Shown: one piece after another, positions 1-20,200 of the stretch
Numbering within the stretch: position 1 is the first letter of the stretch
Layout: the number at the start of each line of letters is the position of its first letter
DNA from: Tachypleus tridentatus
Taxonomy: Eukaryota; Arthropoda; Merostomata; Xiphosura; Limulidae
Direction: 5' to 3'
DNA: 64,000 nucleotides
Assembly: GCF_004210375.1 (NCBI RefSeq)
Contig: NC_134830.1
Coordinates: 4,960,001-5,024,000, forward strand
The notes under the pieces: generated by a model
Database searches by the model: none
What the model was told of the DNA's origin: nothing
What the model saw: the letters and a program-made list of their open reading frames with translations, nothing else
Program-made: the position numbers and the translations under genes

Positions 1-2228
1 GAGCAGTGGAAATTTCTGTTCTGTTCACTTACTTCCCACTTTGTTACAAAAAAGTTCTGCCATTTAAAATTAGACTTTCCCCGTACTTGCTACAACTACT
101 GCAATCAGTGCTTCTAATAGGGAGTGTCTCAGTTCGGCCATTTTGTTGTAAGTCATTAATTTTACCTGGAAAAATACCTGCCACCTACACAGAAGTATGT
201 TTCCGTCAATAAAGATTAGCTGGATACACAGTTTTTCAGATGATTAAATTTCAGTTGTCACCAACAAGAGAATACAACAATCAAGAGGTTTCCAACCTGT
301 TCTTTGAGGCCCCCTGGGGTTCAATGATAGTACTTAATGGGGTCTGCAGTAATACATCAAATCTATGAAATTAATATTTACTGAAAGAGTATAGAATGAA
401 ACAAAATGCCAAGATATTCTGTAACTAATACATTAGTTTGAGTTACAACAGGAGACAAGTGTTGCAAGGAATATTAATCGTTGCGTAGTACAAGTAGACA
501 GCATACTGTTATTGAACCCTAAGTACAACCGTTAGTTTGATAATCCATGTGACTATAATAAATACAGTACTATCTAATCCTTCTGATGGTGTTTTTAATA
601 TTAATTGAATGAATCTCATGTATTCAATAAATTCAGTGTAGTGGAAATGTTTATTGAAATTTATATTAATCTGTTTATATATAAAAACAAAATAGCCACT
701 TCAAATCAGACCTTTACTTTCTCTGCTGTAACTCATATTCATCATCACCTACTGGTACCCAACTAATTTATTTTTTTGTTTTTTCTGCAAAAATATCTGT
801 CAGCTAGATGGCAATACATTTTCATTAATAAGATATATAGAAATTATTCCCTTTAGGCTTCAGAATTTGAGGGTCTGACACTGGTTTGTGATTGGGTTCC
901 CATATTTGGTTCTCAAATGACTGGCTCTTCCCTCAGTAGTTGTTAATTGGCTGAGGGTATTAACTTGTATAATATTCTTACTAAAGCTGCTGTATTACTA
1001 TGTTTATTTAGTGAAGCAAGGTTGTCACCAAAGAGCATGATTCATGCAGGGTTACAGTTAGCAGATTACATAAATCAAGATATTGAAATGACAGTACTTA
1101 GTGTTGGAAATTTATGTAATTTATTAAAATGTTCCGTCCACCTAACATGTACTGGGTATTTACTAAACACTAAATTATTAACCATCAGTAGTTGTGATTT
1201 GTGTTAATAAGACCAGTTTTATTTGTTCATGTCATATAAAAATAATGTTTGAGTTGGCAAAACTGAAATATTAGAGATCAGTCTAAAAGTTTGTATGAAT
1301 ATAAAATAACTGTATAACCCCTTCCTTCTTTCCCCATTGTGACTTGAATTCAGGGGTATAACTTTTATCTTTTTTCCTACAATTTTCTGTCAAGTAAACT
1401 TTTCTTTCAATGTCAGAAGTGGTCAGTTTGTCTGGCTAAGAAGAGACAAGTGTTATTATACATGTTTCATAATCAGTTTAAACATGCTCAATTTGGACCT
1501 TTCTTGTAGTGGAAAGATGGTTTTCAAAGACAGTACTTTATTTTGCTCTTAATTTAAAGACAAATATTTTCTTTATCAAATTAAAACCTTTTATAAGAGT
1601 AAGCATAGTAACTTATCTTAATATTTTAAGTATGAATATTAATAGCTCAAGACCACGTTATCTTGTTTCTACCATGTTCTCAATACAAGGTATCTACATT
1701 TTACTTTCAAACCATTTGAGATTGAGTTTTTTTGGTGTCGCTGATAATTTATGTTGTACATTTAATTATGATGTTTAACACAGCTTATTTAAAAATAAAA
1801 TCTTTAACTAAACTAGTTCATCTGAATTACTTGACCATGTTTCTTTATTGTAATTAGTTTTGTATGTGTTCACAACAATACATTGAAAAACAATCAACAA
1901 GTAATTTGTATCAAAACAATAACAATGTTTATTTCAGCTGTATGTGAAATAAGGGGAAATGACATACTGTAATGAATGCACAATGTTTAACACATTGAGA
2001 TACCTTACTAAGATATTTGTGTTTAAATTTTAACATGGAAGAAGAAAATTCATCACTTTGCATATTCTTCAGTTACAGACAAAGTTTGGTGTCTTCCAGA
2101 AAGTTTCTAATTCAAAGCACTTCGTTTGTAATTTTTATCAGTTATCAAAGGAAACTCTTATTACTTCAGATGGTTTAACTACTTGTGATATCTAAACTCT
2201 GTAAGGTGTATGTCGTTGCGTACAATAA
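1..2228. other. No gene recognised; includes 3' flank of UBXN1
   Basis: AT-rich sequence with only short chance open frames. The part just below 2229 should include the UBXN1 3' UTR. No repeat, transposon domain or RNA gene is apparent. Confidence 0.5.
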
Positions 2229-2272
2229 TCACTGAGGTTTGGTCACTGTAAGAACAGCTGATGGAACCAACC
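2229..2272 (-). CDS. UBXN1: UBXN1 exon 10 (last coding exon, stop)
   Basis: The acceptor is TTTATTTCAG|GGTTGG. The exon encodes GLVPSAVLTVTKPQ and TGA, matching the last strand of the UBX fold (LGLVPSAVL in homologues). The 3' UTR would lie below 2229. Several AATAAA hexamers are present on the minus strand (for example near 1840 and 1930), but none can be singled out. Confidence 0.9.
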
Positions 2273-5200
2273 CTGAAATAAAAGGAATGATAGTAGAGAC
2301 TACCAAAAAAGAAATGATTTGCCCAGTACAGTATCAGCTGTATCTAGTTTTAACACCACTGCTCTACATGTTCAACAGCCCTAAAAGCCCAATTTTAGAT
2401 ACATAAAGTAGCCATGTCTTACATCACAGCAATAGATGGTCGAGGGTATATACATGTACAATTTTTTTAAACATTTACCATCTGTAGAAATTTATCTACC
2501 CACAAGCCATTACTGGACTCAGTATACTTCTGTTACCCATGTATTTTAAATCTCTGATGTGTATGTAAATCATTTTATATTAGACAAGTATTTAGAACTT
2601 TCTTTTACGTGTATGGTAAACCATAAGTACAATGGTTTACACTTTCATGCAGGACAGTAGAATTCTATCGACTACAGCATCAGACAACATGGTTTATACT
2701 TTTCTAAAACATTACAGTAAGGAATAACTTGTTGATTTTGATGAACTTTCCAAAGATATGTTCCTACTTTTGGGAACAAAAGCATTCTGGACTCCAATAC
2801 ATCAAGTAAGTGTCTATACCAAAGACATCTGAACTCAATACATCAAATGTCTATACCAAAGACGTTCTGAACTCAAGTTATTATAACTTTAATACTGACC
2901 TAGAGCTTTCAAAGGCTTCTGCATATCTTCTTCAGTGAAGACTGTTCGAGGAAAGGTAGTCATCAACGAGAAGGGAAGATTTCCGTCTGTTCTGTTAAGT
3001 TCTATATACAGTCGAACTGCTGCCAATGATTCACTAGCACCAAAACTATTAGTTAGAGTCTGGCCATTTGACAAACGAATCTGTAAGGATGATATACAAA
3101 CATTAAGGGCAGATAAAACAAATTGTTAGGGAAATATTACTTTACCTAATATTAGGCCTCACTGAATTGGTTTGCCATTATTTACCTAATATTAGGCCTC
3201 ACTGAATTGGTTTACCATTATTTACCTAATATTAGGCCTCACTGAATTGGTTTGCCATTATTTACCTAATATTAGGCCTCACTGAATTGGTTTGCCATTA
3301 TTTACCTAATATTAGGCCTCACTGAATTGGTTTACCATTATTTACCTAATATTAGACCTCACTGAATTGGTTTACCATTAGTAAAATGTAAATAAACTGA
3401 TATAATCAGGAACACAATAACCAATATATGTATTGAAATATTCTGATTCTTCAATGGATATTTTGTATTCAACACTTAACCCTTTCTAATTACAGCAAGT
3501 TTCATTTTACACAATCTATATAATATTTTATGTGAACTTAGAAAACAACATAATTTGGTTGTATGATATTTCATGTGAAGTGTTGTTTTGTTGTTACTAA
3601 AAACTACTTTCTTTATCGTATTGTGTGTGCCTGAAATCCTCTAAATATATCCAATATAATTATTTTTGAATCAGAGTGTAACTGTCATGTTTTGTTCAAA
3701 CAACAGCTTACTTGTTTTCTCATCTATTCAATCAAACATTTACAGTTGTACAAACAGTTTAACATTTTTCTCTGCAAATTACACTAATTATGTTTACAAG
3801 ACACCAACTGTTACATGTTTTAGAGTAAAATGAATTATAATTACTATTTTTATTTATTTTATGAATCCTGTTATGCCAGCTTGCCTTCAACCCAAGAGAG
3901 TTACCCATTGTCCCAAATAAGGTTAACTGTATAATGTGCATCTCCTACAATAACCATCTAATGGCAGTGAAAGTTGTATGTCAAGTGGCAGTTTAAGCAC
4001 AGTGTACACTGCTCAACACTATCTTCTTGTTAAAATGGAGATCTGAATAATTACACCTTGAAACTATTGTGACAACTGTTAAAATACCACGATGGAGGTT
4101 ATATGATGTCAACACTGGTAATAAGACTAAAGATCTAAACAGTTAGATTGTGATAATGATGTGTCAACTCTTAAAATAAACACAGGAAATAGGTCAGAAG
4201 TATTGTGGAACTTTGTGGCCAACAGTAAGAATCATATAACAATGCTAGTCATTTTATTTTGCACTTTGTGGTTATTACAAGTTCAGTAAAACTGATTAAG
4301 AGCATACAGAGTTAGTATAGAGAATACAGTAGATAAAATAAAAACGTTGATATTTGTTCCCAAGGTTTTACAAATTACACATATGATACTTAATAAATTT
4401 CAAACAAAGTATTTTCAACCCTAAATTGAAAACAATTTTGCACTCAGAGCAAATCAACACTGATTCCATATGGTTGTAGAAAAGTTTCTATAAAAATACT
4501 GTTTTTTGGTTGTTTTAAATATACACACAAGTATAGAAACTGGTAGTCATTGTAATCCAAGGCAGTAGTAAAAGGGTTAAAATCATTAGAGAAATCACAT
4601 AGTTCAGAGGAGGTAAAATTATTGACTTCAATAGGTTAATGAAGGAAGTACAAGTGATTTATAATAGCTATGGTAAGATGCCTGTAACACACCTGTAATC
4701 TACAACTATCGTATTCCTTTTTCGGTATAACAACCTCCTGAACAGGTTGTGATGATGGGGAAGGAGCTGCCGTCACTGAGGTCCTGTATGAAACTTCTCT
4801 TTTCGAGCTTGTTTATCTCTCTCAATTTCTTCTAGCACCCTCTGTCTAGAATTAGAAATAATACTCTTTGTAAGTTTTTATGTTAATATATAAATGTTAA
4901 TTCACATGAAAACTTGCAACAAAACATTTGTAGAGGAAGCATTGTGTATTAATGTACCAGTTACCCTTCATGCAAGCCTTTCACATGAACCTATTTTTGT
5001 CCCTTATGTTACTGATTATTACATGGTATCTTAGCCACAACATCAGAATCTCTTACATAACTGAAAACGAATTTGAGTTGTGCACATTAGTGGGTCCAGA
5101 GTTTTAGTAAAGGGTAGACATAACTTATTACAGATGGGAAGTAAGACCTAAGTGACAAGAAATTACCAAACAAAAAAAGACTCCAGGAACAATATTTTCT

Positions 5201-8200
5201 TTGTTAAATAGGGAGAAATCACATTATAAATTTCTGTTTGTTCCAAGTTATTTTATAACAATGCATGTTACTAGTCAGTCTGCCATATAAATATGTTTGT
5301 TCCAAGTTATTTTATAACAATGCATGTTACTAGTCAGTCTGCCATATAAATATGTTTGTTCCAAGTTATTTTATAACAATGCATGTTACTAGTCAGTCTA
5401 CCATATAAATATGTTTGTTCCAAGTTATTTTATAACAATGCATGTTACTAGTCAGTCTACCATATAAATATGTTTGTTCCAAGTTATTTTATAACAATGC
5501 ATGTCACTAGTCAGTCTACCATATAAATATGTTTGTTCCAAATTATTTTATAACAATGCATGTTACTAGTCAGTCTACCATATAAATATGTTTGTTCCAA
5601 GTTATTTTATAACAATGCATGTTACTAGTCAGTCTGCCATATAAATATGTTTGTTCCAAGTTATTTTATAACAATGCATGTTACTGGTCAGTCTACCATA
5701 TAAATATGTTTGTTCCAAGTTATTTTATAACAATGCATGTTACTGGTCAGTCTACCATATAAATATGTTTGTTCCAAGTTATTTTATAACAATGCATGTT
5801 ACTGGTCAGTCTACCATATAAATATGTTTGTTCCAAGTTATTTTATAACAATGCATGTTACTGGTCAGTCTACCATATAAATATGTTTGTTCCAAATTAT
5901 TTTATAACAATGCATGTTACTAGTCAGTCTGCCATATAAATATGTTTGTTCCAAGTTATTTTATAACAATGCATGTTACTGGTCAGTCTACCATATAAAT
6001 ATGTTTGTTCCAAATTATTTTATAACAATGCATGTTACTGGTCAGTCTACCATATAAATATGTTTGTTCCAAATTATTTTATAACAATGCATGTTACTGG
6101 TCAGTCTGCCATATAAATATGTTTGTTCCAAGTTATTTTATAACAATGCATGTTACTGGTCAGTCTACCATATAAATATGTTTGTTCCAAATTATTTTAT
6201 AACAATGCATGTTACTAGTCAGTCTACCATATAAATATGTTTGTTCCAAGTTATTTTATAACAATGCATGTTACTGGTCAGTCTACCATATAAATATGTT
6301 TGTTCCAAATTATTTTATAACAATGCATGTTACTGGTCAGTCTACCATATAAATATGTTTGTTCCAAATTATTTTATAACAATGCATGTTACTGGTCAGT
6401 CTACCATATAAATATGTTTGTTCCAAATTATTTTATAACAATGCATGTTACTGGTCAGTCTACCATATAAATATGTTTGTTCCAAATTATTTTATAACAA
6501 TGCATGTTACTAGTCAGTCTACCATATAAATATGTTTGTTCCAAGTTATTTTATAACAATGCATGTTACTAGTCTGTCTACCATATAAATATTAAATCTC
6601 ATATTTGTATTTCTCTTGTTTCTACCATAATTGATAATTATGAAAGCAAGTTACTGTTTGAAAATGCTATTTGTATACATTTCAATGAAATGGAAAAAGA
6701 AGTTATGATTGTAGATGAAGTGAATAAAACCTTTCAGAAAATATTGTCATATATGTCCATCTAAAAATGTCATATATGTCCATCTAAAAATGTCATATAT
6801 ATCCATCTAAAAATGTCATATATATCCATCTAAAAATGTCATATATATCCATCTAAAAATGTCATATATATCCATCTAAAAATGTCATATATATCCATCT
6901 AAAAATGTCATATATATCCATCTAAAAATGTCATATATATCCATCTAAAAATGTCATATATCCATCTAAAAATGTCATATATATCCATCTAAAAATGTCA
7001 TATATGTCCATCTAAAAATGTCATATATATCCATCTAAAAATGTCATATATATCCATCTAAAAATGTCATATATGTCCATCTAAAAATGTCATATATATC
7101 CATCTAAAATGTCATATATATCCATCTAAAAATGTCATATATATCCATCTAAAATGTCATATATGTCCATCTAAAATGTCATATATATCCATCTAAAATG
7201 TCATATATATCCATCTAAAAATGTCATATATATCCATCTAAAATGTCATATATATCCATCTAAAAATGTCATATATATCCATCTAAAAATGTCATATATA
7301 TCCATCTAAAAATGTCTTAGATGGACATCACACTAAGTCGTGCTATACAATTGCTTGTGTATATCTACCTGTCTCTAATATGACAAACTTTCAGTGTGTG
7401 TGTAAAACAAGAGAGGAAATAAGATAAACAAAATACACCTGGCCATCTTCTCTTCCAACTTTTCTCTTCGTTTCTGCTCAGCCAGCCTTTTTATTTCTTC
7501 CTCTTCCATCCTGTGAAATCACAAATCTTAACTGAACAAAGAACCAAAATTATTATCCAACATTAGTGCATTAGCTATAAATATTTTTCCTAGAAAAATA
7601 CACTTTATGGGCCTAATAAGTTAAAAAACTGGAACACTTAAAAATCACAGACTATACAAATTACTACTTCTGAAGTCATTACAATCAGTTTCCAACAAAG
7701 GGATATTCAAAAAAAGTCACTGTAATTTGTTTGTTTGTAATTAAGCACAAAACTACACAATGGCTATCAGTTCTCTGCTCATCACTGATATCAAAACTCG
7801 GTTCCTAATGATGTCAATCTGCAGTTACACTAATGTGCCACCAGAGGACATGTAAGTGAAATGGGTATTACTGTCCATGACAGATGTACAAACTGTTTGG
7901 ACTAATCCTTCCATACCATTACAGTATGTGAATTTCAACACTACGGTAATGTTTCACTGATCCAGGTTGACAACTGAATGAACCAAGGTGAGAATAGTTA
8001 TCATTCTTTAGAAATTCCATATACTTGTACCAAGAGTATGCCATAAAGATTCAGCTTGAATGAACATACTGATCAAACGTAGGGTCTGAAATACCTCAAG
8101 CATGAGAAAAATGACCATGTACCAAATGTCAGAAAAGGGTCCAGATCCATAGTAACAAGAAGACTGGATGAGAATGGATAATTTGGTCATGTAGCAGTTA

Positions 8201-11200
8201 AAAAAACATTTATGTCAATCACCAGATATTATTATGAGACTGAAATTTACTTAAAAGTACAAAAACTGAACTACTGAAAATTGGAAAAGAGTGTTATGGA
8301 TAAACAAGTCCAATATTGAAATGTTTGGTTCAAAGTATAGGTTACACATCTGGCTAAAAGAAAGATGAAAAATACCTCAATGCATAGCACTTGCCATAAA
8401 GTGAGGTGGAAGTAGTGTGATGGTTGGGGGGTGGTTTCCTGCCAAGGTGACAGGATATATTTGCCAAATAGATGGAATTAATGGACCAGCACAAGCATCA
8501 TCAGATACTGATCCATCATTCTATATCCAATGGTTTTCATAATATCGTAATTAATTCTACTACATAATGACCCCAGACACTCATCCAACCTATGCAGAGA
8601 TTACTTTGTTATGAAAGAAACTGCTGGAGTTATTCAAATTATGCAATGACCCCACAGAACCCCAATCTCTTTAAGGGAATATATGAGAGAAATTTAGAGT
8701 AAAATCCCAAAGGACACATTGACTAAATATGTTAAACAATGCATGAAAAACAGTTTGCAGTTATTAAAGCAAAATATTAATATTTAATAATAAAGCAAAA
8801 TATTAATTGTTTACCGAACTCAAACTCTTCCACTGAGTTTCTATTAAATATAAAGATTAATATACCTGAGGTTTCACCTTCCATTGTTCTTTTCATGGAG
8901 CCTGAAATCTAATTTTTGACTTTATCCTAATACAGTACTGTACCACAAAATATTAATTAAAATCAAATAATCCAGCTTTCACTCTCACATCAGCTACACA
9001 TTGTGTTTGCAAATAATCTCTCTCAATGAAGGGAATATTACAACTAAATAATAAGTAATTCATTATAATCCATAACTCTAATTTTCTTCATCATAAACCT
9101 CAATATTGGTTTGTAATATGAATTGAACAGGAATTTGTTGAAAACTAATAGAAATGTCAGACAGAAACCACCTTAAAAAGCAGACTTATCCTTGAAACAA
9201 CATCATAATCTTCTTTTCAATGGCTAAGATAACCTAACCACTGATAAACAAAATTAGTGATTTCACAATATCAAACAAAATCAGAATTTGCCTACAAAAC
9301 AATCAGCTGGACATATGACACCACAACTTAGATATACTGTATGTAATGTTGGGTGTGTTCATAACTTGTTTAAAAGTTGATTTACGTTATTATAAGTACA
9401 TAACAGACAAGATGTTGTTCTCAGTGGCTGCTTTTGTATTCAATCATGTTAAATATACACTCACACAATTCCACTTGGCTCAGTAAATAATTACTTTAAA
9501 AGACATAGAAAGTTTTATTTAAAATAATGTTTTAGACATTTGTTTCACTCAAAAAAGATGCTTTTCTACTGATAAAATTTAGCGCGTTTGTTTTGAATTT
9601 CGCACAAAGCTACATGAGGACTATCTGCTAATTTAGCAGTGTGAGACTAGAGGGAAGGCAGCTAGTCACCACCACCCACTGCCAACTCTTGGGCTACTCT
9701 TTTACCAACAAACAGTGGGACTGACCATCATATTATAATGCCCCCATGGCTGAGAGGGCAAGCACATATGGTGTGATGGCTATTCAAATCCTTCACCTTC
9801 AGGTTACAAGTCGAATGCCTTAACCCACCCGGCCATGCTGGGCCTAGTGTGTTTAATTAGAAGGGAGGTGTGTCTTACTTTAGACATATCTTTAAATCTA
9901 CAAATAAGGATTGCAAAGAAACAGAGCTGGAGATCTAATGGTGACAGTTTACTCAAACTACAAATCCCTATTATGACTCCATTATAAAATTATTACAAGT
10001 TGTAGTATAAGATCATACAGGAATTTTGTAATAAACTGAATATTGTAATAAACTTAATTCAACCTCCTTTATTTTGTTGTGCTACAAAACTTAAGTCCTA
10101 CATGTGTGCGTTAGTTGGAAACCAGATCTTGAGCACTGTCTGGAAACAGTCACATGAAAAGTTCCCAAGTTGCATGTTATTACTCACTATTGTTAATCAC
10201 TGCTCAAGCATGCTGTTTCTACATGAATTTTCATAAGTAATTTCAGCAAGTACCTGGATTGTGATGGCCGTTGGACGGTGCTGATGCAATGTAATTTCTG
10301 CCCAGTGCTATGAATGTCAAAGTGAAGAAATTCAACCAAGCACTGGAAAACAGCAGGAATAACTATGACTCTCTCAAGGTAGCCAAATGCCTCATCATCT
10401 AATTAGTGATGCACACTAACTAGTTACCTAAACTTGTTGGTATGAAGGCCCACAAATAAGTGAAGTGTCTAGCTATAAGGGTTAATGTATATCCTACAAA
10501 AGAGGCCCTCAGCAGAGGTAACCTCAGTAAGAACAAGGATTCTGCAAAGTGCTGGGGTTGTACAGCCATGAGGGAGACCCTATGTCATCTTAGCGGCCAA
10601 TGTCCGAAGTTAAAGTCAATGAGAATATGCTGTCACACTAAGATCTGTTACCATTTGGTAAAAGATGCCTCCTATAAAGGGTGGAAGGCTCTTCAAGAAT
10701 CCACCTTTGAGATAGGTAGTGGTGAACGCCGAAGACCTGATCTAATCTTCCATAACGATGAAGAAGCCGCGATTGTTGTACGTGACGGTCCAATACAAAC
10801 TCATGTACAACTCGTTACAAGAAGCATACGAGTCAAAGGTTTCTTGATATCAAGATCTAGCACCTCAAGTATAAGAACTCAGGGTGCTACTTCGTTGTTT
10901 TTCATGGTCTACCAATAGGTGCCCATGGTGCCTGGTTGCCTGTAAACATGGAAGTTCTAGCAGACCTGGATATCAATTCCAAATATTTTGAACAGTTCTT
11001 GTGTAGGCATACAATCCTCTGCACACTTGACATCCTGTGGAAAGCGATTAATGAAAAAAATCTCGCTTGGTAGGAATTGTCGAATTCCATCAAAGTATTT
11101 TTCCCTGTATCATGTCATTCGTGTTTGACATCCAGCATCTGTCGGTATCGTCAACCGTGACATAAAATATCGATAGCCAAATGCCTTTTCATCTAATTAG

Positions 11201-14200
11201 TGATGCACATGAATGGATTAGCTAGATTCCCACTGTTCCTATCTAGCAAAACCACAGCCAAGGGAATTGGCTTTGCTTTTTAGCCATTTCCTACTCAAAA
11301 AACAGTGGTAATTCTTTCTACTGTATATTATCTTAGCTGAAATTGTGTGTATTTAGTATTTATTACCATTGTAAATAGCACTATTTTGTATATTTGAAGG
11401 TAGCAGTTGTAAATGTTGTCTATAATTGGAGACTTGTGCCAAATGTGTTGCTGTTATCCATTATGTATGCATTATTAAATTGAATCAAAGTACAAATATT
11501 ATATTTTCAAGCCTACAACTGGGGACTTTAAAAAAACAACAAAAAAAACAAGGCTAGAAATAGTGTCTACATATTTTCTCAAGTTAAATCAGCTACCATT
11601 TTGAGTTATAAGCACCAAATGTATAGCATAAACGGAAAAACAACTTTTATTACTGACTTGTGACGTATTTCCAAATGGCATCACCATCATCTTTGTCAGA
11701 CGTTTTACTGTAGTTTCTGCCCACAATTGATATGTAATAAACATACTTTATTTTAAATAAATACTCTTTTGAGTATTTCAAACAAAATGAAAAGAATACC
11801 AAAAGAAATTATAAAGTACATCCCCCAACTCGTGGTTTGTTACTAAGTGATGTAAACTTCACATTAGAATCCTTTGTTCACGTGGGAACTTCATGTAATC
11901 AATATTTAAATAAACATTTGTCAACTCAACATTGATATAGATTATAACCTTTTCTATCGCATCATTCTTAGCCACGGGTTATAACCTTTTCTATCGCATC
12001 ATTCTTAGCCACGGGCTATAACCTTTTATATTGCATCATTCTTAGCCACTGGCTATAACCTTTTATATTGCATCATTCTTAGCCACTGGCTATAACCTTT
12101 TATATTGCATCATTCTTAGCCACTGGCTATAACCTTTTATATTGCATCATTCTTAGCCACTGGCTATAACCTTTTATATCGCATCATTCTTAGCCATGGG
12201 TTATAACCTTTTCTATCGCATCATTCTTAGCCATGGGTTATAACTTTTTCTATCGCATCATTCTTAGCCACCGGCTCTAGCTGTTTTAAATGTTAAGCTT
12301 CATTAGTAACTATCAAGATCACAAGATACACCAAATAAGGAAGGGCCTTAAATATAAAACCACTGATAGACAAGGAAAAATCATGTAAGAACAGTAGATG
12401 TGTGTCACTGTATTTCCAAGGGAAGAGAGTTCAGGATGATCAGAAAAATGCAAAAACTTTATAAACGGTTCACACACAAGACTTCACAACTGCCATTTCT
12501 GGCTCAATAAACGGTTCACACACACAAGACTTCACAACTGCCATTTGTGGCTCAATAAACGGTTCACACACACAAGACTTCACAACTGCCATTTGTGGCT
12601 CAATAAACGGTTCACACACACAAGACTTCACAACTGCCATTTGTGGCTCAATAAACGGTTCACACACACAAGACTTCACAACTGCCATTTGTGGCTCAAT
12701 AAACGGTTCACACACACAAGACTTCACAACTGCCATTTGTGGCTCAATAAACGGTTCACACACACAAGACTTCACAACTGCCATTTGTGGCTCAATAAAC
12801 GGTTCACACACACAAGACTTCACAACTGCCATTTCTGGCTCAATAAACGGTTCACACACAAAAGAATTCACAACTGCCATTTGTGGCTCAATAAACGGTT
12901 CACACACAAGACTTCACAACTGCCATTTCTGGCTCAATAAACGGTTCACACACAAGACTTCAGAACTGCCATTTCTGATCACTTTGATAAAAAAAAAATA
13001 TTAAAATAATTAGAATTATTTTTTTAGTTAAATTTTGACAGTTAATACTTGACTAACTTCTGTTTTGCAAGAGTTAGTTCTTGGCCTGCTTTCCTTCTCT
13101 GCTTTTCCTTTTCAATAGCACTTTTCTTTTCAAGTTCGTTCCTTTCTAACCTTCTCTGTTTAATTCTCTCTTCTAATCTGGAAGTCAAAAAGTTTTACAC
13201 TGAAAATTAAATACACTCACAAGAAAACTTAATAAAACGTCTCTTGATAAAAATGTAAAGAACTTAAATGGATAAAGCTCCAAGTCTCGAGTTAAGATAA
13301 AACAGTAGTGAAATTCTTATTTCTTTAATGGCAGTTTCTCTCTCTTACATTTTCACAACAATAAATATATACTTTTTACATATGGTACCACAACACCTTA
13401 TCATAAGCGTAAGGTAAACAAATCCACTAATACATTATAAACCATCATGCAACTGGGTATTTTGATAAACTTTCTTTAGTATTGCTTCTCGGATTTTTCT
13501 CAAGAGAAACAAATTCCTCACTGAATTTCAGAAAGTGAAACATCCATGTAACACAGACATATTTACTTTGTGTGTCATAACAATATAACACAATCAAGTA
13601 AGTTTTAACCTGAAGTAAGAACAAACTGAACCATTGTAATTTGATTCATTTGTGTATGTAGTGAAACCACGTACACATTCAATGACAAAACTTACATTAC
13701 AGTTGTCTTCTCTGTGATTTTTTCCATTGTTTTACATTTTTGATCAGAAAATATAATAATTTGTTTTAACTAATAACTGTTTGAATGTCTTTGTACCTAT
13801 GATTTTTCCACAATTGTCAATCATCAACATCCCATAATATCCAAAGAATCTTTCACAAAAAGCAAATGACATCATAACACAGCTAACCATATTTCTTTAC
13901 ATGTCCAAATGAACTAATTACTGTTTGGAATTTCCCAGATATGACTACAATCCATCATTACATAATCATTATAATACGTTCCGAAGAGCAGGCTCGTATG
14001 AAACATAAAACTGATTACGTGCCCTGAAAGCAAAACTAATTATTTATCAACAACATGTCTCTGCCAGGTATTAATTTTGGTAGACAAAACTCAAAAACTT
14101 TCCACTTTAAGCACCATCATTAATGCCCAGACATAACATGTTAGTAACAAGCATTACGAAAAACATAACAGCATAAAAACATTTATTCCATGGTAACCAA

Positions 14201-17200
14201 AACACCTATCGTACGTATGTGTATAAAACATTAAAAGTGTTGTAAACTGCTATAGAAATACACAGCATCTAGCTAACACCATATTTATTAGGTAATAATT
14301 TCACTTAATAAATAAACCTCAAAACTAGCTTAATAAAGAGTGGAATTTATTAACAAAAATAACTTGTGAATATGGAAAAATGTACACAAAGTAAAATGTT
14401 TTTATATGTTACAGTGAAATTACATTCAATGAAACTCAGTGTGATCTGACCCAAATTCTGGAAAAAACTTAACGCTGTTTCACCAGATGTCGTGCTAAAC
14501 GTTTTTAACCCACATTTCTCACAAGTTCTAGCTTGGGTCCTTAGTCCCATCTTCTGTAGTCAGTACATAATATATAAATAAACACAATAAACAATTATTA
14601 AGAAAGAACTTCAGAAAACACAAACATGAGGCCACAAGAGTACATAGCAGAAGTGTCATTTGTACATGTCACTTGCATCTTATATATTATGTATACTATA
14701 TAATATCAACCAATCACACTAAGCCTAACTCCCATCTAATTATGGAGTAAAATTTTAAATTGGTCACTCTGCTTGCCTAATACTCACAGCATAACCAATC
14801 TCAAAGACATCTTCCCTACTTTTCTGATATGTCTGTTGGTAAGCTATATGCTATAAGCAAAGTCAAGAGTTTTATACAGATTTTTAAGTTACCATATGGA
14901 TAAGCTAGAATATAAAACAAGAAGCTCGTGTCTTAGTTACCATATGGACAAGCTAGAATATAAAACAAGAAGCTCGTGTCTTAGTTACCATATGGACAAG
15001 CTAGAATATAAAACAAGAAGCTCGTGTCTTAGTTACCATATGGACAAGCTAGAATATAAAACAAGAAGCTCGTGTCTTAGTTACCATATGGACAAGCTAG
15101 AATATAAAACAAGAAGCTCGTGTCTTAGTTACCACATGGACAAGCTAGAATATAAAACAAGAAGCTCGTGTCTTAGTTACCACATGGACAAGCTAGAATA
15201 TAAAACAAGAAGCTCGTGTCTTAGTTACCACATGGACAAGCTAGAATATAAAACAAGAAGCTCGTGTCTTAGTTACCACATGGACAAACTAGAATATAAA
15301 ACAAGAAGCTCGTGTCTTAGTTACCACATGGACAAGCTAGAATATAAAACAAGAAGCTCGTGTCTTAGTTACCACATGGACAAGCTAGAATATAAAACAA
15401 GAAGCTCGTGTCTTAGTTACCACATGGACAAGCTAGAATATAAAACAAGAAGCTCGTGTCTTAGTTACCACATGGACAAACTAGAATATAAAACAAGAAG
15501 CTCGTGTCTTAGTTACCACATGGACAAGCTAGAATATAAAACAAGAAGCTCGTGTCTTAGTTACCACATGGACAAGCTAGAATATAAAACAAGAAGCTCG
15601 TGTCTTAGTTACCACATGGACAAGCTAGAATATAAAACAAGAAGCTCGTGTCTTAGTTACCACATGGACAAGCTAGAATATAAAACAAGAAGCTGGTGTC
15701 TTAGTTACCACATGGACAAGCTAGAATATAAAACAAGAAGCTAGGTGTCTTAGTTACCACATGGACAAGCTAGAATATAAAACAAGAAGCTGGTGTCTTA
15801 GTTACCACATGGACAAGCTAGAATATAAAACAAGAAGCTTCGTGTCTTAGTTACCACATGGACAAGCTAGAATATAAAACAAGAAGCTTCGTGTCTTAGT
15901 TACCACATGGACAAGCTAGAATATAAAACAAGAAGCTGGTGTCTTAGTTACCACATGGACAAGCTAGAATATAAAACAAGAAGCTCGTGTCTTAGTTACC
16001 ACATGGACAAGCTAGAATATAAAACAAGAAGCTGGTGTCTTAGTTACCACATGGACAAGCTAGAATATAAAACAAGAAGCTTGTGTCTTAGTTACCACAT
16101 GGACAAGCTAGAATATAAAACAAGAAGCTTGTGTCTTAGTTACCACATGGACAAGCTAGAATATAAAACAAGAAGCTCGTGTCTTAGTTACCACATGGAC
16201 AAGCTAGAATATAAAAAACAAGAAGCTCTGTGTCTTAGTTACCACATGGACAAGCTAGAATATAAAACAAGAAGCTCGTGTCTTAGTTACCACATGGACA
16301 AGCTAGAATATAAAACAAGAAGCCTCGTGTCTTAGTTACCACATGGACAAGCTAGAATATAAAACAAGAAGCTCGTGTCTTAGTTACCACATGGACAAGC
16401 TAGAATATAAAACAAGAAGCTCGTGTCTTAGTTACCACATGGACAAGCTAGAATATAAAACAAGAAGCTCGTGTCTTAGTTACCACATGGACAAGCTAGA
16501 ATATAAAACAAGAAGCAAGTGTCTTAGTTACCACATGGACAAGCTAGAATATAAAACAAGAAGCTCGTGTCTTAGTTACCACATGGACAAGCTAGAATAT
16601 AAAACAAGAAGCTCGTGTCTTAGTTACCATATGGACAAGCTAGAATATAAAACAAGAAGCTCGTGTCTTAGTTACCACATGGACAAGCTAGAATATAAAA
16701 CAAGAAGCTCGTGTCTTAGTTACCACATGGACAAGCTAGAATATAAAACAAGAAGCTCGTGTCTTAGTTACCACATGGACAAGCTAGAATATAAAACAAG
16801 AAGCTCGTGTCTTAGTTACTACATGGACAAGCTAGAATATAAAACAAGAAGCTCGTGTCTTAGTTACCACATGGACAAGCTAGAATATAAAACAAGAAGC
16901 TCGTGTCTTAGTTACCACATGGACAAGCTAGAATATAAAACAAGAAGCTCGTGTCTTAGTTACCACATGGACAAGCTAGAATATAAAACAAGAAGCTCGT
17001 GTCTTAGTTACCACATGGACAAGCTAGAATATAAAACAAGAAGCTTCGTGTCTTAGTTACCACATGGACAAGCTAGAATATAAAACAAGAAGCTCGTGTC
17101 TTAGTTACCATATGGACAAGCTAGAATATAAAACAAGAAGCTCGTGTCTTAGTTACCACATGGACAAGCTAGAATATAAAACAAGAAGCTCGTGTCTTAG

Positions 17201-20200
17201 TTACCATATGGACAAGCTAGAATATAAAACAAGAAGCTCGTGTCTTAGTTACCACATGGACAAGCTAGAATATAAAACAAGAAGCTCGTGTCTTAGTTAC
17301 CACATGGACAAGCTAGAATATAAAACAAGAAGCTCGTGTCTTAGTTACCACATGGACAAGCTAGAATATAAAACAAGAAGCTCGTGTCTTAGTTACCACA
17401 TGGACAAGCTAGAATATAAAACAAGAAGCTCGTGTCTTAGTTACCACATGGACAAGCTAGAATATAAAACAAGAAGCTCGTGTCTTAGTTACCACATGGA
17501 CAAGCTAGAATATAAAACAAGAAGCTCGTGTCTTAGTTACCATATGGACAAGCTAGAATATAAAACAAGAAGCTCGTGTCTTAGTTACCATATGGACAAG
17601 CTAGAATATAAAACAAGAAGCTCGTGTCTTAGTTACCATATGGACAAGCTAGAATATAAAACAAGAAGCTCGTGTCTTAGTTACCATATGGACAAGCTAG
17701 AATATAAAGCAAGAAGCTCGTGTCTTGTCTATTTACTGAGATATCACTCATGTACTTAAACACAGTGACCCCTCTCACTTCTTTCTATTTGTAAGACATG
17801 CTCCCTTAAATACACTTCAATATATGACATGTGAATAACTGACAGCTTAGAATGTCCCCTAAGTGGTTTTCTTATCAATTTTAATCTGTTGAAAGGCATT
17901 TTGAACCAAGATTTCAAGGAAGTAGGTTGTGTCTCTAGTCTACTTGTCTGTATTTGAACCTAAAAACAAAATAAAATTTCAAGTTACCAAACGTGAAAAT
18001 TTATAGTGAAATTTCATGGTATCAGTATAATTATTTATGATTATTTGGTTATTCAGATGTATATATAACACCTAAAATTTTTTTTTTTTCTACATCCTCC
18101 ACATGCAAAACTTCGAAAGAGTTAGTAACATTCAACCAGCAGCAAACAAGTACAAAGGACATAGCTAGAAGAGATAATTATATGTTCTACTTCTTTGTTT
18201 ACCCTTTTATGTTTTAAGAAAAAATTAGGTTTAAGAACTTGTTTGTACATTGTAATATAATTTATATACACATATAACAATTGAAGTGTATCACTTTGTA
18301 AAGACCAAAGGTCAGTTTTATATTGTTGGATACACACCACATCATTGTAGCTTTTGTACTGTTAGCCAAGCATGGCTAAAAGGTCAATATAACAAAAATA
18401 AGAAATACATGTATATGTATATAATGTTGCAAGAATTAGGCTAGTTACTTTAAACATTTGTGTTATAATTTGTGGCTATTCTTGAATGAAAGAAGCAAAA
18501 TTTAAATTTCCTAATCTGTTTATGGTGGTTACAAGACAGATCAAATTGACCAAACCTGTATAGAGATTAAATAATGAAGATTAAAAATAAAAGTTTTTCC
18601 TTAAGAAACATTTAATAAAAATATCTGGACATAAGAATTTCATTCAGAAGTAAAATCTGAAAATCTTCTAATACATAAAAGTAAAACGAATATTACTTTT
18701 CACGTTGGATAGGCAACATGCAAAAACAAAAAATGCTTGAGAAAAATATTGCTTAACAATTCTTAAGACTTAATGAAAAATAAAACTTATGTATGAAATC
18801 ACTGTAATGTTTACTGATATTCTGCCAAATTTCAGGAACATACACTTACTAATTTATAAGTTATAGCATAAAAACTGTAACAAGCACAAAATAGTTATGA
18901 GGACAGTCCCAGGGCCCACGCCAGAGCTGAAATAATTAAAAGCTATTCCTTTTATTAAAAGTTTTTATCATTAACAATGCTAACAAATTTATATTTGAAC
19001 TAAAATATGCTTTTAAAAAACATTATGTACTTTCCAAAAACACACATTCCAGAATTCTCCAGTGATACCATTTTAGACCACTTACTAAAGAGTACTCCAA
19101 TGCTAAAAGTGTAAAAAATGGCACATAATTATTTTTATGATTACTTCATTTGCACTTATTTATGAGTTTCCTATCTAAATAGTGTTCTCTCCAAGATGTA
19201 ATGCTGCTTGGATAATGTTTGTTTAGAAGAGCTAAGAAAATGTGTTTAGCTGCTGTGATGCCACAAAACACAAGTGCAGTCATATGGTATTTATCGACTG
19301 AATATTCTCCAGCTTATGTTAATATACACAACATTATAAAGCTGAAATAAAGAGTCATACAAAAACACTGGAACAAGAAGGGAGTGACTGTGAGATGCTT
19401 GGTTTCTTTTATACCTGTTAAACATGCTGTGTTATTTTGTTTCACTGCCTCAAAGTTTGTTATTACAAAGTTCTGTATTGTGGACAAACATTTAATGCCA
19501 TATACAAGATTCAACAACTGCCAATTTTGTGGATTTTCAACATAGCTGCCCTTTCTTTATTCTGGCATGCTGCAGGACTAACATGTGCATGACGATAGTT
19601 GGACAGTTTGGTTCTTTGTGATTGACGGGGGCTGCACTTTTGTCTGTTTTTATGCCTGATAACGAAGAACTGGTATTTTTGAAATAATTTGAATTATTGT
19701 AAGAAATATAGGAAACACTGTTTGTTCTGGTTTAAATCACATTTTGCAAAAACCTTTTAAATATGCAGGCAGTATGCAAGTCTGCATTTTGATTAGAAAA
19801 ATATAATTGAGAAATGCAGACAGCTGAATAAATGTGAGGTCTATTTTACACATGTGCTTGGCTGTTGTAATGGAAATTAACTTGGACATGTGCATAATAA
19901 TAATAATGGTTCGTCAGTGCTTAAAAAATTGCAGGCCTATGAACTTTTCAGAAGCACAAACAGATTCTTATAACAATAGAAATAGACTTGTTATGATGAA
20001 TATTATTCTGAAAAGTCCAAAACGGATGCATGGAGAGATACAAGAAACTAAGAACACTTCAGTTCTTAGAACCAAGTATAAAACTTGTCTCTCCATTGTT
20101 CTATACAAATTATTCAACAAGCTGAGCCCTCGAATACAGTTCTCCATTTCTTAAGAAATGCTTAATAGAAGTTATTATTTTGAAAAACAAAACACACTTT

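Follow-up and report, generated by a model that had tools for sequence, protein, structure and literature searches.

R2 is a textbook site-specific retrotransposon that inserts into the 28S ribosomal RNA (rRNA) gene, and it is under development for gene insertion into human ribosomal DNA (rDNA). An older Bombyx paper is said to deal with R1 and R2 outside 28S genes. The present study concerns a 5'-truncated R2 copy with 28S sequence on either side, lying outside rDNA in a window of 64,000 nucleotides from the horseshoe crab Tachypleus tridentatus (contig NC_134830.1, positions 4,960,001 to 5,024,000), and its relatives elsewhere in the genome. We found that this cassette has many dispersed counterparts, R2 copies that likewise carry 28S arms, and that 28S fragments spanning the R2 site are dispersed as well, mostly without R2. 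Positions in 28S are numbered from the R2 site, 0 being the T of TAGCCAAATGCC and minus values lying upstream; the cassette itself is given in window coordinates.

Of the systems described so far, the following come closest. R2 copies outside the 28S gene occur in each of five Drosophila species, and some ectopic R1 and non-rDNA R2 copies carry flanking 28S sequence (Stage and Eickbush 2009, PMC2718515); from R1, these authors infer that the 3' end of the transcript often contains 28S. The horseshoe crab copies are alike in being rDNA-specific elements outside 28S, some with 28S flanks. In contrast, the Drosophila R1 arms measure 7-28 bp upstream and at most 14 nt downstream, whereas the R2 arms reported here reach about 195 and 124 bp and occur in many copies; moreover, Drosophila R2 is seldom found outside its locus, whereas here there are many copies, accompanied by R2-free 28S fragments (PMC2718515). 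In birds, R2 is flanked by 28S fragments, fish have R2 families with a 28S-derived 3' untranslated region (UTR), and two R2 families lack target specificity (Kojima et al. 2016, PMC5035012). These cases share with ours the incorporation of 28S sequence into R2 and the departure of R2 from its site; they differ in that our 3' junctions stay canonical and our tails are mostly private 28S copies, and the available text mentions neither copy numbers nor site-centred R2-free fragments (PMC5035012). Limulus R2 has 28S duplications of 21 bp at its 5' junctions, to which some junctions add another 7 or 113 nt (PMC3774820). Extra 28S blocks that begin near -103 to -111 before R2 in several of our copies recall the 113-nt duplication, and two edges at -27 and -28 are a further likeness, but the Limulus junctions lie in rDNA, whereas the copies described here are dispersed and have broken frames where these were inspected (PMC3774820). 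Finally, the elements known as SIDEs are internally deleted R2 that keep the 5' ribozyme and the 3' end (PMC3414825). One of our copies (L007), in which the 5' end of R2 is followed by a jump to the 3' part with the middle missing, resembles them; the copy in the window, unlike SIDEs, lacks the 5' end of R2 and is simply truncated on that side (PMC3414825). R2 outside rDNA, R2 beside 28S fragments, 28S taken into R2 and non-specific R2 are all, on these texts, already published (PMC2718515, PMC5035012). What seems new is the scale, together with R2-free 28S fragments centred on the target: a literature search whose coverage left out most subscription journals found no report of dispersed R2-free 28S fragments around the R2 site. 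It is the population, rather than the single cassette, that deserves a second look.

The initial annotation had placed a 28S-R2-28S cassette at 10258..11277 in an intron, and Rfam, blast and phmmer (E 6.9e-18) bear this out, with measured segments of 158, 758 and 103 bp agreeing with the sizes it gave (Table 1). Rfam model RF02543, the eukaryotic large-subunit rRNA (LSU), matches window 10249-10426 with 144.3 bits (E 7.5e-35). In blast comparisons with a 28S reference, 10258-10415 corresponds to -122..+36 and 11174-11276 to 0..+110, the right arm lacking one 7-bp unit. At the R2 3' junction ...ATCGA abuts TAGCCAAATGCC, which is the canonical R2 position. As the left arm overruns the R2 site by 36 bp, TAGCCAAATGCC is present twice, at 10380 and 11174, and the truncated R2 is joined to 28S directly at +36. 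The R2 homology of 10416-11173 is clear: window 10463-10866 matches R2 proteins of known structure with a best E of 6.9e-18, over what we take to be the region around the knuckle and the endonuclease. A C-terminal piece in a different frame (10876-11073) matches R2 weakly (E 0.24), and Pfam gave no match for the R2 pieces of the cassette that were searched. Stops occur, a frame change precedes the C-terminal piece, which is followed by the 3' UTR, and the longest open stretch is 152 amino acids; the copy is a dead fragment and not a full element with a single open reading frame and reverse transcriptase. Its homology starts far into the element, at about 5046 on the scale of a fuller copy (L012) whose R2 spans about 1651-5815. 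An R2 derivative always starting at window 10419 was considered on account of a shared start at query position 171 and rejected, as other copies extend further upstream into R2; position 171 marks where the window copy is truncated. The cassette is not in a 28S gene of the rDNA array, as its arms stop after 158 and 103 bp and the flanks are intronic. With 10 of 100 compared tail positions changed, and with the broken frames, the suggestion of an old event holds: the cassette is an old, dead, ordinary member of an unusual population.

This population emerged from a search of the genome (2.17 Gb, 205 contigs) with the cassette, which gave at least 66 matches when the best 40 of 1114 first-look candidates were scored. 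Dozens of R2 copies lie across many contigs, solitary or in small tandem groups, and the main matches, the duplicate of the window copy aside, are about 73-83% identical to it. The annotated description of an isolated cassette outside rDNA thus stands as to its place and fails as to its isolation, and the proposed search for other 28S-R2 cassettes returned many. Upstream 28S is present also in fuller R2 copies (L009, L012, L022, L026, L004 and L007), and on the downstream side 24 R2 copies carry 25 28S tails that run 7 to 124 bp beyond the junction before giving way to unrelated or tandem sequence. One locus (L026) holds a full cassette, from 28S -80 through R2 to +93, and in two others (L003 and L006) truncated R2 is joined directly to 28S at -3 and +10. 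The proposed alignment to the rDNA and R2 of the host succeeded in part: a host LSU was found (L076), and no R2 was seen in about 10 kb of 28S array inspected.

A set of R2 5' junctions whose 28S ends at +32 has three common changes, the two non-CpG ones occurring in 7 and 8 of 8 copies, and thus forms a lineage with its own 28S-derived 5' end. At five loci (L047, L056, L059, L060 and L062) the 5' end of an R2 lineage consists of 48-bp units of 28S -14..+32 in tandem, so that sequence resembling the R2 target forms an array. The fixed +32 ends and the 48-bp repeats had been entertained as a 28S satellite family and proved to be R2 5' ends. Tandem R2 3' ends with 28S pieces were noted at L008/L011, L027-L029 and L021/L024; at L027-L029, units with 28S from 0 to about +97 are repeated several times, R2-28S units growing into small arrays.

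The R2-free fragments were sought with the 158 bp of window 28S across the R2 site, which yielded 474 first-look candidates, of which the best 40 were scored and 44 matches listed. A control stretch of 158 bp at about -600 to -440 gave 15 candidates, one of 72 nt at about -400 to -330 gave 9, and one at about +235 to +281, where only 46 bases of the intended 158 bp matched, gave 14; first-look counts are loose, and in the controls every candidate was scored and each yielded a match. Bearing on the downstream control, a self-comparison suggested masking of about 500 bases of L076 beyond position 2195. Among the stretches searched, the R2-site region is the most dispersed part of 28S. The 44 matches fall in 39 places. 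Three of these are the window, its duplicate and the host LSU, and the other 36 were all examined. L076 is a near-complete LSU with indels (1267.8 bits) and the sole one among the loci scanned with Rfam. The 36 fragments comprise 11 R2 5' junctions and 25 fragments without R2 in the stretch examined (19 of 28, and 6 of a last eight whose stretches were 0.55-0.8 kb long, so that R2 lying further away would be missed); a match of L061, L064 and L070 to a piece of L026 was treated as a common repeat and not as R2.

Measured against the host LSU, neither the 36 fragments nor the R2 copies have arms that extend beyond about -240 or +150, a span of some 390 bp; the one that goes furthest downstream (L045) reaches +146 or +151 according to the reference used. 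The query, spanning -122..+36, sets the middles of the fragments and not their outer limits, and the LSU reference extends beyond those limits, about 1.9 kb upstream and to about +281 downstream. In a set of 20 fragments, one of them R2-linked (L047), divergence from their majority 28S ranges from 1.5 to 15%. Most changes (151 of 222) are private to one copy, and CpG sites account for 16 of the 19 that recur in at least four copies; the shared derived changes (subfamilies) of a SINE-like (short interspersed nuclear element) 28S repeat family were not found. In the tails of the R2 copies, likewise, 78 of 113 substitutions were found in a single copy, and a self-propagating 28S-tailed R2 is disfavoured because the tail substitutions are mostly private. 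The preponderance of private changes in fragments and tails argues that the 28S copies descend separately, each anew, from functional 28S, in independent events spread over a long period.

By eye, four fragments (L044, L046, L048 and L066) run directly into strings of AT-rich hairpins, three of them ending at the identical 28S position, +126. On the reverse strand of L084, an inverted copy of the last 28S bases follows a short spacer past an end at about +126, a snap-back-like arrangement also read by eye. L083, likewise on the reverse strand, has its R2-free 28S fragment within what appears by eye to be the reverse-transcriptase coding stretch of a long interspersed nuclear element (LINE), judging from a motif.

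Did 28S and R2 leave rDNA together? The initial annotation held that a whole inserted unit had moved; this does not follow from the window copy alone, because R2 could have landed in 28S that was already displaced. In that case the tails would be expected to be older than the R2 they adjoin. In 22 R2 copies, the two have decayed equally: the mean tail distance is 0.092, against 0.093 for the R2 terminal branch. The branch is only an upper bound on R2 age, so that the test is not sharp. The tail distance is the larger in 11 of the 22 (rank correlation 0.33, p 0.13), and the window copy gives 0.107 and 0.106. The tail and tree sets omit the near-identical copies L002, L011, L023, L024, L028 and L029, and the tail comparison also omits L013 and L022, whose tails measure 16 and 7 bp by eye; L021 counts twice for its two tails, and at 4 positions the tail reference was given the base found in most copies. 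Tail ends differ, moreover, between R2-bearing and R2-free fragments (Mann-Whitney p 0.003), 5 of 23 against 16 of 25 lying at +113..+127. Because of the equal decay and the differing ends, movement of 28S and R2 as a unit, by RNA or DNA, appears fairly likely for most copies; the two probably left rDNA together many times, and to that extent the idea of a whole-unit transfer gains ground.

We tentatively favour an explanation by off-target reverse transcription, although we would not put it at quite even chances. A 5'-truncated R2 would have sat in a 28S gene; a 28S-R2-28S RNA with limited 28S on each side would have been read from that unit and copied into DNA at a site outside rDNA. The protein of R2 itself, working away from its target, is the most likely agent of this reverse transcription, and the resulting copy would subsequently have decayed within the intron. 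The same process may have run many times on 28S RNAs from the region of the R2 site, whether or not these included R2 in full-length, truncated or internally deleted form. Both the RNA intermediate and the R2 protein as agent are what we infer, from the preferential dispersal of the R2-site region, the limited reach of the arms, the equal decay of 28S and R2 and the mostly private tail changes described above, and from the following features. An RNA route is a natural one, because ectopic R1 carries 28S that has been read as 28S on the transcript (PMC2718515). Against an expectation of uniformly placed ends, the 3' ends are clustered both with R2 (p 0.001) and without it (0 of 20,000 simulations), as discrete RNA ends would give; the edge lists were compiled by hand, and the choice of reference moves positions by a few bases. 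In two R2 copies, L006 and L007, the 28S starts at -28 and -27, and 8 of 20 outer 28S edges lie at -27..-43; cleavage by the horseshoe crab R2 ribozyme has been predicted at -28 (PMC3774820). The structure of L007 resembles an internally deleted RNA with a preserved 5' end.

Target-site duplications were searched for at 39 loci (14 R2 copies, 19 R2-free fragments and 6 new fragments), 27 earlier loci being redone with wider flanks. The full cassette at L026 is flanked by a 25-bp duplication with 2 mismatches, equalled in 0 of 400 controls, and the R2-free L083 by one of about 43 bp; both speak for an RNA route. A 19-bp repeat at L048 was not counted, lying 47 bases from the 3' edge within a palindromic repeat, and neither were 9-10-bp matches at L003 (p 0.04), L071 (p 0.01) and L082 (p 0.02) that do not adjoin both edges; at L022 the test is weak, its 3' edge having been set about 25 bases short. 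The target duplication or poly(A) that had been suggested for 10250 and 11280 was not found, and no poly(A) was seen at the insertion edges printed.

Several points weigh against off-target copying of RNA. Clear duplications are present at only 2 of the 39 loci, and there is none at the window cassette, where the search served also as a test for a processed rRNA pseudogene of LINE origin in trans. Missing duplications are weak evidence, since insertion by R2 frequently leaves none. The wild-type horseshoe crab junction showed no self-cleavage in vitro, according to the available text (PMC3774820). The RNA fold of one 28S/R2 5' junction was no better than shuffles (z -0.74, in a program that does not model pseudoknots), which leaves the published prediction as the basis for the ribozyme. 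An R2 truncated at its 5' end lacks its own ribozyme, and its RNA would need to be produced and mobilised in trans. The edge tests, in assuming uniform ends, are crude. Longer 28S pieces exist outside our sets, several of them found by the control searches, and L077/L078 start well upstream of -194 and reach about +32. That the R2 protein would copy R2-free 28S RNA has also to be supposed. Lastly, 3' ends at +90..+98 occur in 10 of 23 R2-bearing but 1 of 25 R2-free fragments (p 0.0015); the ends of the two sets differ, so they need not have arisen by one mechanism.

Foremost among the alternatives is that R2 from rDNA inserted site-specifically into a 28S piece already displaced in the intron, with 5' truncation and a 36-bp target duplication. 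We regard this as unlikely, yet it draws on several of the observations above. Suitable targets exist, since 25 of 36 loci (window, duplicate and host LSU excluded) are R2-free fragments with the site and some are only about 1.5-3% diverged, hence plausible targets; R2 3' junctions are canonical, and in the window, L003 and L006 truncated R2 joins 28S at +36, -3 and +10, much as in a normal insertion at the site. Both copies of the 36-bp repeat in the window share two changes from 28S, as would be expected if the fragment had decayed before R2 landed, and this counts against our favoured reading. Both changes are at CpG, however, which mutates repeatedly, and the first of them, at +30, is also found in 8 of 22 tails. 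Insertion into displaced targets also fits poorly with tails that are on average no older than the R2 bodies, within the resolution of that test, and with the difference in tail ends between R2-bearing and R2-free copies.

Rather less probable is a DNA route, by which pieces of rDNA broken around a fragile R2 site, with or without R2, would have been captured as filler at double-strand breaks elsewhere. The equal ages of 28S and R2 fit it just as well; 37 of 39 loci lack a clear duplication, no poly(A) was seen at the edges printed, and a truncated R2 with 28S on both sides could easily be carried along. Yet the fragments span an uncut R2 site, those examined are confined to about 390 bp and their ends are clustered; two edges coincide with the predicted ribozyme site, and L026 and L083 have long target-site duplications. 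Mis-joining of rDNA reads into the intron, the assembly chimera of the initial annotation, is very improbable: L076, with its indels, is the sole near-complete LSU among the Rfam-scanned loci and rDNA may be poorly assembled, but the cassette differs by about 10% from functional 28S, is present at both copies of the locus and belongs to a genome-wide family of dispersed relatives with their own flanks.

Intron placement of the cassette in a UBX-domain gene, putatively UBXN1 according to the initial annotation, is plausible, because a UBX-domain exon lies on the minus strand and coding-like open stretches on that same strand (7375-7518 and 13042-13194) lie on either side of the cassette. A 99% identical copy of the cassette lies 236 kb away within a longer duplicated stretch, which may represent either a segmental duplication or an unmerged haplotype. 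Window 900-22000 recurs at G000:C6:4724500-4744000, with 95.6-99.2% identity over listed blocks longer than 600 bp. The introns near the cassette hold long tandem arrays at 5230-6595, 6760-7315, 12460-12977 and 14890-17700, with units of about 59, 21-23 and 48 bp as judged by eye, and a tRNA-like SINE or repeat lies at about 9590-9850, presumably of a kind present in horseshoe crabs (Limulus).

Table 1. Features of the cassette and of its putative host gene (window coordinates)
Feature	Position	Strand	Evidence
28S rDNA arm upstream of the R2 site (-122..-1)	10258..10379	+	Rfam RF02543; blast vs 28S reference
28S downstream of the R2 site (0..+36), first copy, before R2; direct repeat of 11174-11209	10380..10415	+	repeat search; blast
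R2 3' end, 5'-truncated, decayed	10416..11173	+	phmmer vs R2 proteins; frames
Right-hand 28S rDNA arm (0..+110), starting at the canonical R2 3' junction	11174..11276	+	blast; alignment
UBX-domain exon of the gene holding the cassette in an intron (placement plausible)	2892..3125	-	Pfam PF00789, E 1.7e-18

It is tempting to speculate that the R2 machinery continually exports its own target, 28S around the R2 site being copied, with or without R2, from rRNA-type transcripts to hundreds of places, and that the displaced sites may in turn receive R2; we consider this possible, though on balance doubtful. If true, such export would give an rDNA-specific element a population outside rDNA. Many off-target insertions with 28S flanks amount to a natural record of the errors of an R2-type protein, of the RNAs it copied, of the ends of those RNAs and of the way in which ends were joined. 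They would further show that R2 activity, and not random pseudogene formation alone, can leave 28S sequence outside rDNA as a by-product.

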